Below are positions 33,426 through 37,409 of a DNA stretch of 64,000 nucleotides, piece by piece. Source of the DNA: Hyaloraphidium curvatum (lineage: Eukaryota; Monoblepharomycota; Hyaloraphidiomycetes; Hyaloraphidiales; Hyaloraphidiaceae); NCBI GenBank assembly GCA_025558095.1, contig JAIVFI010000005.1, positions 868,001-932,000 of the forward strand. Reading direction: 5' to 3'. The notes under the pieces were generated by a model, which worked only from the letters and a program-made list of their open reading frames with translations, ran no database searches and had not been told where the DNA came from. The position numbers and the translations under genes are program-made. The stretch's first letter is position 1. Every line of letters begins with the position of its first letter.

Positions 33426-34787
33426 TCACCGCCCCTTCCCGCATTCGTTCGGCAGCCCCACCTCCCCCCCCCTCAGCATCGCCTCCGCCACTTCCACGTT
33501 CCTCCGCATCAGACACTCCCTGTTTTCCAACAGCCTCGAGAGCATCCCCCCGTACTCCCCCTCCTTCCCCACCATCGCCTTGTGCGCCGCTAGAACGGTC
33601 CCGTCCTCGGGGTTAAAGTGCGCCCGCGGATCGAGGAACGAATACAGCGCGAGCACCTCCGCGGGCACGGCGAGGGGCGTGAGAGAGACGAGCGAATTGA
33701 ACAGCACCGACGAGGCGGTGTGCACCGTGTACCCGGCCCCCGTTTTGAACGCCGGGAGGAGCGCGCGGGCGAGTGGGAAGTGCTTGAAGAACTCGCCGTA
33801 TGGCACCCTCCTCCCCCCTCCCGGCAGGTCGACCAACCCGTTTTGGAGGAGCGCTGGGGGGATGGTCGCGTTGGCGTGCGGCGGGCCGAAGGAGCCCAGC
33901 AGGCGCACGGGGAGGGCCGGGGAGCCAGCCGGCGGGGGGGAGGTTTCCAGTTCGCGGAAGACGGAGGCGTAGTCCCGCCGCGTGGTGTCGAGCTGTCCAC
34001 CGATCCCGAGCCCGCGGCGGGAGGTGGAGTTCCACCCCTCCGGGAACAGGGGGTACAGGCTCGAGAGGTAGTCCACCTTCCCAGGGCCGAACGACCGCAT
34101 GACGTCCGCGGTGTGAGGGGCGGTGCCAAGGACGTAGGAGGGTCTGAGCCAGGCGAGCTGCCGCGCGGCCAGGGGCTTGGAGAAGTGGTCCGCGATGTGG
34201 ACCATCACGGCGATGATGGGCCGTTGCCCGCCGTCCGGGCAGGAAAGCCAATGAGCGGCCGCGGTCTCGTTGATCGGGGGATGGTACTGGTCGAACGGTG
34301 CCGTCACGATCAGAACGAATTTGTAGGAGCACGCGGCTGGCCAAAAGTCAGCGGCGGGTTTGGCCGGGAGGGGATGCCACGAGCGCATGACCTCGGAGAT
34401 GCCCTGGTCCCACCCTGGGAGCGTGTAAAGGTCCACATAGGGACGCGGAGCGATCGAGGACAAGATGAACGTGTGGGCGGCGTAGACCTCGTGGTGCCAC
34501 GACACGTCGTTGAAGATGGCGACGCGGGGCCGGCGAGTGGGGGCGCCATCGTAGGCCGCCGCGCCCTCAGTCCCCTCAAGGGCCTCCTTAGAATATGACG
34601 AGCCGTGCGGAGGGCCCAGCGGGGTCCAATCGCCACCGGAGCCCACGAGCGTTCGCCAGATCCCGGCGACGAGGGCGGCGGCGAGGGCTAGGCGGAGGAC
34701 GCGTCCGGCGGCGTTGTGCCACCGCCCTGCGGCGCCCTGGAGAGGCGGCGGCGGGCGTTCGCGGCCGTCGTTCGACGGCCGCCCCAT
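33426..34787 (-). CDS. Type II membrane (Golgi-like) protein, possible glycosyltransferase
   Basis: A single exon encoding 453 residues from ATG 34787. After a short basic N-terminus, VLRLALAAALVAGIWRTLVG is a signal anchor. The lumenal domain reads PRVAIFNDVSWHHEVYAAHT, LYTLPGWDQGISEVMRSWHP, IIAVMVHIADHFSKPLAARQ, YVLGTAPHTADVMRSFGPGK and LPVRLLGSFGPPHANATIPP. There are potential N-glycosylation sites (NET, NST, NAT). Short anchor plus large lumenal domain plus the alternation of hydrophobic strands and loops resembles fungal GT-B-like glycosyltransferases, but no catalytic motif is clear. It lies on the same strand directly downstream of the dideoxysugar-synthesis fusion gene (about 260 bp apart), so a role in using that sugar is possible and untested. 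Confidence 0.6.
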   Translation of the reverse strand: MGRPSNDGRERPPPPLQGAAGRWHNAAGRVLRLALAAALVAGIWRTLVGSGGDWTPLGPPHGSSYSKEALEGTEGAAAYDGAPTRRPRVAIFNDVSWHHEVYAAHTFILSSIAPRPYVDLYTLPGWDQGISEVMRSWHPLPAKPAADFWPAACSYKFVLIVTAPFDQYHPPINETAAAHWLSCPDGGQRPIIAVMVHIADHFSKPLAARQLAWLRPSYVLGTAPHTADVMRSFGPGKVDYLSSLYPLFPEGWNSTSRRGLGIGGQLDTTRRDYASVFRELETSPPPAGSPALPVRLLGSFGPPHANATIPPALLQNGLVDLPGGGRRVPYGEFFKHFPLARALLPAFKTGAGYTVHTASSVLFNSLVSLTPLAVPAEVLALYSFLDPRAHFNPEDGTVLAAHKAMVGKEGEYGGMLSRLLENRECLMRRNVEVAEAMLRGGEVGLPNECGKGR

Positions 34788-35045
34788 GCAATGGTACAGG
34801 ATGGTTTGTGTACGGAAGGTGCGGTGGTCGCGACCCGGCTTCGGGCCGAACCGATTCAGCCACGCAGCGTCCCGTCGCCGCAGGACGATGTCTTCCCTCT
34901 CTTCTATGGCCAACATCGAAAATGGCCTGCTAATGATGTCGTCGCTTTCCCTCTCTTTTCTCTCCTCACTCGCCCCGCTTTCTGATATCTCGCCCTGGCG
35001 CCACCCGCGACGAGTCAGCCCTGTCCGCTTGCTCTACCCCGCGGC

Positions 35046-37409
35046 CTAATCTCCAAGCTTGGCACGGTTCGCCCGGTACCACTCCACCGTCTCGCGGATG
35101 CTCTCCGCCAGCGGCGCGAATCTAAAGTCGGGGCACGCGGCCTCGAACACGCTGGTATCCGCCGTCCTCCTGAGCGGCCCATCCACCGCGTCGGTGTCGA
35201 AGGCCAGCCCCCCCTTGAACCCGGCCGCATCTGCAACCATGCCCGCAATCTCCCTGATCGAGTGCTCCGGCCCCGCAACAATCAGCGGCTCCCCTCCGCG
35301 GTGATGCTCCAGCGCCCACATCAGCGCCCGCGCGAGGTCGCGCGCGTGCATGAGCTGCCGCAGGGGCCGGCCGGTGCCCATCACCTTGAGCGGCGCGTCT
35401 CCTCCCACTTCTCCCGCCGCGATGGATTTGGCGATGAGCGCATTGACCAGTGGCGCCGTGGCGGCCCCGAAATCCCCGTGCGCGCCGAAGAAGTTGCCCG
35501 GCAGCACGGTGGAGAAATCCTCCCCGTGTTCCTTGTTGTACCAACGCGTGAGCGCAGCGAGCGCGCGCTTGGCCAGCGCGTACGACTCCCCGGCGGGGTG
35601 CAGGGTGCCTTCCTCCGCCTGCGACGCGGTGACGGGGTAGGTCGCATCCTTGGGGAACATGACCGTGGAGAGCACCGACACCACCCGAACGGGTCCGCAC
35701 AGGTCGCGCATGTCGTGCGCCGAGCTGAGCACGTTGTTGTTGGCGGCGACGTTGCCGAGCCAGAACTCCACGGGGCGGGCGGTCATCTCGTTGAGCGACT
35801 GCAAGCTGGCGGCGAGGTGCAGCACCTGGGTCGGCTGCACGCGGCGGAAGAGGGCTGAAGTGGCGAGGGGGTCGGTGAGATCGGCGTTTGCGCGGCGGGC
35901 AAAGAACCATTCTGTCGAGGAGGCATCGTCGGATGGGGGGCGATCGCAGCCGACAGCGCTGAGGCCGCAGCCGTTGGTGATTGGTGCACCCTGAGCCGTC
36001 CTTTGCCCGTTGGAGAGCCGAAGCACCTCGGCCTCCACCGCGCGCCCGAGCATGCCCGCCGATCCGGTAACCAGCACCACATGATGGGGCCGGAACTCAA
36101 AGCCCAACAGCGCATCCACCAGGAACGCGACGTCGGCGTCGCTGACGGGCGAATGGTGCACCCCAACAAAGAATCCGCGCGTGTGCAGCACCTCCGCTCC
36201 CGGGAAGTCCGACGGCCGCAGCCCCGGCATCGCGGCGGCTACCATCGGCTGGCGGGCAAAGTTGCCACTCACGATCGGGCGGTTTTCCACGCCTGCCGCC
36301 GTGAGGTGCGCAAGGAAGGCCCGCAGCTGGTGGGCGTACTTGCGGCGGAGTACGAGGCCGACCCCGAACCACGCGGGATCGGTGCCCTCCGCGGCCCGCA
36401 TCAGCGACATCCTGTCCGCGAACCGCGCATCGGCTTTCAAAGCGGCCTCGATCCTGGAGAGGTTGTCCTTGCGGCACGCGTTGAACTCCTCCAGCTTCCC
36501 CAGCTGCACCCTGAGCATGGCCCCTTGCACCTCCAGCGGCCTCACGTTGAACCCGGCCCCCACGAACAGGAACCGCGGGTCGATGTCCGGGTGCGCTGCT
36601 TCCGTTTTCGAGCGATCAGCGTCGTGCCGCGTCCAGCCGTGCGCTCGAAGGCGGCGGAGGCGGTCCGCATCGGCGGGGGTGCGGCAGACGACCATGCCGC
36701 CCTCGCCCGAGGTGATGTGGTGCGAGAAGTAGAAGGAGAAGGCGCCGAACTCGCCAAAGGTGCCGAGCATCCGAGGGGGAGACTTGCCGATCGTGGAGCG
36801 GGAGCCGAGAGCCTCGCAGGCGTCCTCGATCAGAAGCAGGTTGCGGGCGCGGGCGAGGTCCAGCATGAGGGCCATCTCGGCCGAGTTGCCGAGCACGTGC
36901 ACGGCCATCAGCCCCCGCACCCCTGGGTTCGCTTCGCACGCGGCCGCCAGCGCCGGCAGCGATATGTTGAACGTCCCCGGATCGACGTCGACAAACACCG
37001 GCTTGAGCCCCAGCTGCAGCATTGGAGCCACCGATGTCGACCAGCACACCGCCGGCACGAGCACCGCGTCGCCCCTCTCCAACTTTTGCTCCCTCGAGGG
37101 GTCCATCAGCGCGCACAGCATCAGCAAGTTCGCCGAGGAACCCGAGTTGACCATGACCGCGTGCGGGGCGCCGACGGCCGCGGCGAACTCGCGCTCCGCG
37201 GCCTCGACGTTGACGCCCATGGTCAGCCGGCCGCTGAGCAGCACTTCGGTCATGGCGAGCAGCTCCTCTGCGCCGAAGGCGTTGGCGGCGAGTGGGAAGC
37301 GGGGTGCGGAGGAGGTGGCGGAGGTGCGCTCGGCGCCGCAACGGGAGGCCCACTCCGCGGCGACGGCCGCACGCCAGGGCGCCGCGTCGTCTGCCGGTAC
37401 GTCGGGCAT
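35046..37409 (-). CDS. Fused ColD-type sugar 3-dehydrase and GDP-fucose/colitose-synthase-type epimerase-reductase
   Basis: An intronless gene; ATG 37409 gives 787 residues (the frame is open to a further ATG at 37586). Residues 40-435 are a DegT/DnrJ-fold PLP/PMP enzyme: MVNSGSSANLLMLCALMD, AVCWSTSVAPMLQLGLKPVF, IEDACEALGSRS, RAHGWTR, GFNVRPLE and GVENRPIVSGNF. Where aminotransferases carry the PLP-binding Lys it reads SFYFSHHITSGEGG (Ser229-His230), the hallmark of ColD/RfbH 3-dehydrases that remove the C3 hydroxyl of GDP- or CDP-4-keto-6-deoxyhexoses. Residues about 442-787 are an extended SDR: VVLVTGSAGMLG, STVMFP, SYALAKR (Tyr609, Lys613), LPGNFFGAHGDF and VMGTGRPLRQLMHARDLARA, close to GDP-fucose synthase and colitose synthase (ColC). 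The joined activities predict GDP-L-colitose synthesis from GDP-4-keto-6-deoxymannose. No GMD-type dehydratase is in the window. Confidence 0.9.
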   Translation of the reverse strand: MPDVPADDAAPWRAAVAAEWASRCGAERTSATSSAPRFPLAANAFGAEELLAMTEVLLSGRLTMGVNVEAAEREFAAAVGAPHAVMVNSGSSANLLMLCALMDPSREQKLERGDAVLVPAVCWSTSVAPMLQLGLKPVFVDVDPGTFNISLPALAAACEANPGVRGLMAVHVLGNSAEMALMLDLARARNLLLIEDACEALGSRSTIGKSPPRMLGTFGEFGAFSFYFSHHITSGEGGMVVCRTPADADRLRRLRAHGWTRHDADRSKTEAAHPDIDPRFLFVGAGFNVRPLEVQGAMLRVQLGKLEEFNACRKDNLSRIEAALKADARFADRMSLMRAAEGTDPAWFGVGLVLRRKYAHQLRAFLAHLTAAGVENRPIVSGNFARQPMVAAAMPGLRPSDFPGAEVLHTRGFFVGVHHSPVSDADVAFLVDALLGFEFRPHHVVLVTGSAGMLGRAVEAEVLRLSNGQRTAQGAPITNGCGLSAVGCDRPPSDDASSTEWFFARRANADLTDPLATSALFRRVQPTQVLHLAASLQSLNEMTARPVEFWLGNVAANNNVLSSAHDMRDLCGPVRVVSVLSTVMFPKDATYPVTASQAEEGTLHPAGESYALAKRALAALTRWYNKEHGEDFSTVLPGNFFGAHGDFGAATAPLVNALIAKSIAAGEVGGDAPLKVMGTGRPLRQLMHARDLARALMWALEHHRGGEPLIVAGPEHSIREIAGMVADAAGFKGGLAFDTDAVDGPLRRTADTSVFEAACPDFRFAPLAESIRETVEWYRANRAKLGD

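Follow-up and report, generated by a model that had tools for sequence, protein, structure and literature searches.

The window, a 64,000-nucleotide stretch of Hyaloraphidium curvatum DNA, contains on its minus strand a single uninterrupted frame of 787 codons that joins a DegT-fold domain to an SDR domain (Table 1). Both are recognized by Pfam in the 787-aa protein, with DegT_DnrJ_EryC1 matching residues 46-433 (E = 3.2e-69) and Epimerase residues 445-707 (E = 8.9e-34), which bears out the one-frame reading of the preliminary description. The motifs quoted there were also all found, SFYFSHHITSGEGG in the N-terminal domain, where it holds Ser 229 and His 230, and GSAGMLG, SYALAKR and LMHARDLARA in the SDR half. 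A hidden intron is unlikely, because the relatives of the fusion gene can be aligned over its entire length and the sole variable stretch of the protein (residues ~464-497) is also occupied in its nearest relatives (P0002, P0004, P0006 and P0007).

Table 1. Features of the fusion gene and the adjacent open reading frame (positions in the window)
Feature	Position	Strand	Description
Fusion gene	35046..37409	-	787 aa; ATG at 37409, stop TAG at 35048-35046; ColD-like 3-dehydratase plus GDP-fucose-synthase-like SDR (predicted C4 reductase) lacking the epimerase dyad
N-terminal domain, residues 1-441	36087..37409	-	DegT fold, PMP-dependent 3-dehydratase type
Ser229-His230	36720..36725	-	Equivalents of ColD Ser187-His188 in the PDB alignment; His in place of the PLP lysine
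C-terminal domain, residues 442-787	35049..36086	-	Extended SDR, GDP-L-fucose synthase-like
Val583	35661..35663	-	Position of the GDP-fucose synthase general base Cys (E. coli C109, human C116)
Tyr610-x3-Lys614	35568..35582	-	With Ser581, the retained Ser-Tyr-Lys reduction triad
Pro653	35451..35453	-	Position of the GDP-fucose synthase general acid His (E. coli H179, human H186)
Downstream ORF	33426..34916	-	496 aa, same strand; ATG 129 bases beyond the fusion-gene stop

The host genome looks fungal. The fusion gene sits on a 937-kb contig, and the genome yields 96 Zn2Cys6 and five Chitin_synth_1 matches, compared with none for either family in 14 prokaryote controls; bacterial contamination, which the preliminary description had also discounted, is very improbable. 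Third-position GC is 0.87 in the fusion gene versus 0.86 in the downstream ORF. Judged by eye, the downstream protein has one N-terminal hydrophobic segment followed by a soluble region, and it is possibly a lumenal glycosyltransferase-like protein. It matches no Pfam family at E 1e-3, and scoring 7998 candidates gave no homologue except the ORF's own entry; on these grounds an assignment as a glycosyltransferase was not adopted; any functional link with the fusion gene is speculative. Upstream, the translated minus-strand frames between 38061 and 42427 of the window resemble, by eye, pieces of ionotropic glutamate-receptor-type channels, which would be odd in a fungus.

At least 104 proteins, including the query, match both halves of the fused protein, a sample drawn from the best 120 of 1409 matches with 8000 candidates scored. 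The fusion is not restricted to the fungus; its named carriers also include the bdelloid rotifers Rotaria and Adineta, Chromera velia and Bathycoccus prasinos. Database names for the family are odd: fused members are labeled ‘CDP-6-deoxy-D-xylo-4-hexulose-3-dehydrase’, and SDR members that stand alone are labeled ‘GDP-L-fucose synthase’, a name that the residues of the SDR part contradict (see below). The ORFs of the 80 top-scoring bacterial and archaeal loci listed, and those of the 80 top-scoring viral loci listed, include no frame carrying both halves; both sets are samples from which rarer members may be missing. Likewise, the matches listed for 38 out of 290 genomes from a single phylum span the N-terminal half only (E up to 1e-60; three candidates or fewer scored in each), and in one of the scanned genomes (G047) a 751-aa open frame surrounds a match confined to query residues 35-435. 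A viral origin was rejected, as a viral scan with the single protein was empty and the 80 viral loci lack a two-half frame; the 28 Fcl-like frames at these loci comprise 23 with the Cys motif, four without a motif and one with a non-catalytic string.

The nearest solved structures of the N-terminal domain are those of ColD, by both sequence and fold, in a list of 50 rows that tests chiefly this domain and includes GDP-fucose synthase as one row. ColD is a standalone enzyme, whereas here its counterpart is fused to an SDR; the two show 34-35% identity in a structure alignment and align across residues 37-424 in the PDB alignment. In the latter, Ser 229 and His 230 fall on the Ser-His pair of ColD (2gms), which is Ser-Asn in the mutant chain 3b8x, confirming the earlier placement of a histidine at the PLP-lysine position. 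The Ser-His pair is present in all 119 family proteins with residues at the site, query included (131 were considered, 12 of which reach too little of the N-terminal domain). The active-site loop, residues 229-235, lies below pLDDT 50 in the predicted structure. The cysteines at 24, 99, 122, 158, 198, 242 and 312 do not form the C-x-C-x2-C pattern that marks the [2Fe-2S] cluster of E1/SpnQ. E1 and SpnQ carry a four-cysteine cluster that ColD lacks (PMC8987622). An RfbH/E1 identity was rejected because the protein lacks C-x-C-x2-C and scores 248.6 bits with NCBIfam PRK15407 (RfbH, E1), below the curated cut-off of 423.

The suggested comparison with ordinary lysine-containing aminotransferases also favors the dehydratase: the fused protein matches the ColD entry with 219 bits versus 103 bits for the perosamine synthetase entry, and the N-domain tree places it among His-type proteins, separate from a pair of Lys-type aminotransferases encoded by this genome, which are the only Lys-type rows in the outgroup. 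The genome holds six further DegT-family genes in all (C29:586637, C4:312180, C24:606392, C39:299416, C37:182644 and C21:392207; L003-L008), five with the PLP lysine and one, C29, apparently with histidine (FYASHV). This second His-type gene joins the two Lys-type rows on long branches, a placement that may be false. Ahead of the DegT domain, C39 and C21 have a stretch that appears acetyltransferase-like by eye, as in the RffC-RffA fusion. Taken together, the histidine and the missing C-x-C-x2-C support the assignment of the N-terminal half as a ColD-type 3-dehydratase domain. Among 78 bacterial or archaeal loci with a His-type relative, gmd lies within 3 kb in 50, an Fcl-like gene in 52, both in 45 and neither in 21. 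Because of its ColD-like features and the frequent location of its relatives in GDP-mannose clusters, the domain fits a GDP-4-keto-6-deoxymannose 3-dehydratase.

The SDR half retains Ser 581, Tyr 610 and Lys 614, which are invariant in a 34-sequence alignment, as well as the Gly-rich NADP motif, and the structure model is confident in this region. In GDP-fucose synthase (GFS), Ser107/Tyr136/Lys140 serve reduction, and Cys109/His179 serve inversion at C3 and C5 (PMC7949155). Human GFS (TSTA3; 4bkp, 4e5y), the E. coli enzyme and the genome's own GFS (on C1) all keep the cysteine and histidine, whereas the fused SDR has valine and proline at these positions and is joined to a 3-dehydratase. The C1 match contains one TGA, which we read as lying in an intron. 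Since one keeps the dyad and the other has Val/Pro, the fungus, judged by these residues, has a normal GDP-fucose synthase plus the separate, altered SDR of the fusion gene. Scanned whole, the fused protein reaches only 135 bits with NCBIfam GDPFucSynFcl against a curated cut-off of 500.

Loss of the dyad is a feature of the family. Neither cysteine nor histidine is found at the dyad sites in 103 of the 104 two-half proteins (query included; two have a gap), P0094 being the only one with both, and 64 of the 104, again counting the query, have Ser-Val-Tyr-Lys-Pro at the triad and dyad positions. By comparison, Fcl-like ORFs on bacterial ColD-type loci have Cys and His in 52 of 57 cases, Ala/His in five and Val/Pro in none. 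The Ala/His genes lie in actinobacterial gmd/Fcl-like/colD clusters (L044, L060, L064, L070 and L094), with alanine for the epimerizing cysteine and the histidine kept; the sugar made by these clusters, too, may be other than colitose. Serine, tyrosine and lysine of the triad are all retained in 91 of the 104 proteins. Several fused relatives (P0046, P0047, P0048, P0049, P0051, P0053, P0055, P0063, P0068, P0069 and P0088) combine a preserved dehydratase motif with a degraded SDR half, in which Ser-Tyr-Lys or the Gly motif is changed; P0055 is from the bdelloid Adineta steineri and P0046 groups with bdelloid proteins. In human GFS, the C116A and H186A mutants have activity on the fucose precursor below detection, so that loss of the dyad alone does not guarantee a working reductase, and C116S gives mostly the product without C5 inversion, the altro product (PMC12362431).

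The two halves appear to have different histories. The SDR tree, rooted at the midpoint, comprised 38 of the 104 fused proteins, 32 of the 57 bacterial ORFs, nine solo proteins, two eukaryotic GFS and E. coli Fcl. All fused SDR domains except that of P0094 form one group with seven solo proteins (100/97); this group adjoins human GFS, the genome's own GFS and P0153, and the 32 bacterial Fcl/ColC rows are set apart, by a 100/99 branch, from eukaryotic GFS and the SDR halves of the fused proteins. The seven solo proteins, of 327-371 aa, look like later fissions, because they are nested within the fused group. One SDR protein (P0141) and one N-domain protein (P0114) are each on a contig of 9687 bases, probably one and the same. 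P0094 lies outside the GFS and fused proteins in the SDR tree and inside the fused group in the N-domain tree, on long branches; given these conflicting placements, it could represent a second fusion or a domain replacement.

The N-domain tree comprised 38 of the 104 fused proteins, 13 of 27 N-only proteins, 30 of the 78 loci and ColD, and a follow-up tree 26 fused and four N-only proteins, 19 loci, ColD and L184. ColD of 2gms falls in a different clade from the fused N domains, whose bacterial relatives reach 44% identity among the best listed loci and 49% in the one-phylum scan. With modest support, the fused clade takes in three Pelagibacteraceae genes in the N-domain trees and also, in the free follow-up tree, the L184 gene, from the phylum to which the Bdellovibrionales record L025 belongs; a single clade of 30 fused and N-only rows versus 21 prokaryotic rows (ColD included) was not rejected (p-AU 0.186). 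The Pelagibacteraceae loci (L018-L024 and L026) encode a stand-alone N-domain relative with no gmd or Fcl-like neighbor within 3 kb at the scores used, and the three used in the trees (L018, L020 and L023) have SHQ at the active site. A bacterial origin is likely for the N-terminal half alone. Acquisition from bacteria, as put forward in the preliminary description, does not hold in that form, given the grouping of the SDR half with eukaryotic GFS and the lack of a two-half frame in the prokaryotic, viral and one-phylum sets described above; uptake of an entire bacterial colD-colC fusion was rejected on the position of the SDR half. The simplest history would be a single fusion of a bacterial-type dehydratase with a duplicate of eukaryotic GDP-fucose synthase, after which vertical inheritance or transfer carried the gene to further eukaryotes.

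A pathway for the fused protein can be outlined from the genes of the same cell. Two GMD-like genes are present as exon-sized matches on C18 and C24, neither with a single piece over the family cut-off, so that the substrate is probably available; the earlier idea of a eukaryote equipped for a 3,6-dideoxyhexose is strengthened. The GMD enzymes would supply GDP-4-keto-6-deoxy-D-mannose, from which the ColD-like domain, using PMP and His 230 as acid/base, would remove the C3 oxygen to give GDP-4-keto-3,6-dideoxy-D-mannose. The SDR domain, a presumed paralogue of eukaryotic GFS that has kept NADPH binding and Ser-Tyr-Lys and lost the Cys/His pair inverting C3 and C5, would then reduce the 4-keto group directly, without C5 inversion, leaving a D-sugar. 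No RmlC-type epimerase (PF00908) was detected in the genome, while 11 of 14 controls were positive; with exons read separately, a gene with many introns could have escaped. Tyvelose is 3,6-dideoxy-D-mannose; L-fucose, L-colitose and D-tyvelose have the same configuration at C4, and C5 is the only center at which colitose differs from tyvelose. We infer the face of C4 reduction to be that of GFS from this shared stereochemistry and the altro product of C116S. With no C5 inversion and the usual GFS face, the expected product is GDP-3,6-dideoxy-D-mannose (GDP-D-tyvelose), its C4 epimer being less likely and GDP-L-colitose not expected. On balance, then, the protein is probably a bifunctional enzyme that carries out 3-deoxygenation followed by C4 reduction without C5 inversion to form a GDP-D-sugar, most likely GDP-D-tyvelose; the substrate, the order of steps and the product are deduced from the residues and gene content.

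The preliminary description read the protein as ColD plus ColC. Its ColD part stands, but synthesis of GDP-L-colitose, with the SDR half both inverting C5 and reducing C4, seems unlikely. The ColD-like domain and the membership of the SDR half in the GFS superfamily, with Ser-Tyr-Lys retained, would suit such an activity, but valine and proline have side chains incapable of proton exchange and occupy both epimerizing sites; the dyad is missing almost throughout the fused family while most bacterial Fcl/ColC-like ORFs retain it, and the SDR half lies outside the bacterial ColC/Fcl group. Slightly more credible, though still improbable, is reduction from the opposite face to give GDP-3,6-dideoxy-D-talose, the C4 epimer of tyvelose. 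Dyad loss reshapes the sugar pocket, the face is not readable from sequence and a shifted binding mode would yield this epimer; against this, the SDR half groups with GFS, whose outcome at C4, also on the altro path of C116S, is that of D-manno/D-arabino.

There is less still to recommend a non-catalytic, structural or regulatory SDR half, which would make the protein a 3-dehydratase and leave completion of the sugar to another enzyme. The SDR half can evidently decay, because Ser-Tyr-Lys is not intact or not fully aligned in 13 of the 104 proteins, several of which keep the dehydratase motif, but the query itself retains the invariant triad and the Gly-rich motif in a confidently modeled region. 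Least probable of all, and very improbable, is that the gene comes from contaminating bacterial DNA or that a colD-colC fusion was recently transferred from bacteria. A single long exon and the identity of the N domain to bacterial relatives would agree with such an origin, but the large contig in a genome with fungal markers, the GC3 resembling that of the neighboring ORF, the lack of a two-half prokaryotic frame in the sets searched and the trees, in which the closest relatives are fused-family proteins, all speak for a resident gene. Within the preferred reading, bifunctional synthesis of GDP-D-tyvelose, all fused proteins need not make one sugar, since P0094 keeps Cys and His.

The predicted enzyme differs in several ways from the systems it resembles. 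Bacterial ColC, a GDP-L-colitose synthase, is like the step expected here in reducing GDP-4-keto-3,6-dideoxymannose. Campylobacter MlghC (Tyr/Arg) and DdahC (Thr/His) are likewise related to GFS, lack the full dyad and act as C4 reductases, but they belong to heptose pathways with separate epimerases, prefer pre-epimerized substrates and are not said to be fused in the available text of PMC7949155. Because these precedents act after separate epimerases, an epimerase of an unrelated kind could act in the pathway here as well. The CDP-tyvelose pathway, as generally known and as treated in the accessible part of PMC8987622, may share D-tyvelose as its final sugar with the fused enzyme, but it uses CDP, an iron-sulfur E1 and a C2 epimerase, whereas here the carrier is GDP and mannose already has the C2 configuration.

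Searches of the open-licence literature showed no gene of a 3,6-dideoxyhexose pathway from a eukaryote, and the term GDP-tyvelose did not turn up in any paper. To our knowledge, the known 3,6-dideoxyhexose pathways are bacterial, and ascarylose occurs in nematodes. In its available text, a review describes NS 3-dehydratases from bacterial pathways only (PMC8987622), tyvelose occurs on Trichinella glycoproteins (PMC3755266), and the accessible portions of PMC7725333 and PMC11242134 gave no lead to a eukaryotic pathway. The fused protein combines known kinds of enzyme, and its altered second half changes the predicted product. The occurrence of the fused family in algae and bdelloid rotifers as well as a fungus leads to the prediction that eukaryotic cells contain a new activated sugar. 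More tentatively, the family may represent a bacterial-type ColD fused to a duplicated GDP-fucose synthase lacking its epimerase residues that makes GDP-D-tyvelose in one polypeptide. Eukaryotes would then have a single-gene path to a 3,6-dideoxyhexose that differs from both the CDP-tyvelose and the GDP-colitose pathways of bacteria, and the family would be a candidate for explaining the origin of tyvelose in animals such as Trichinella.
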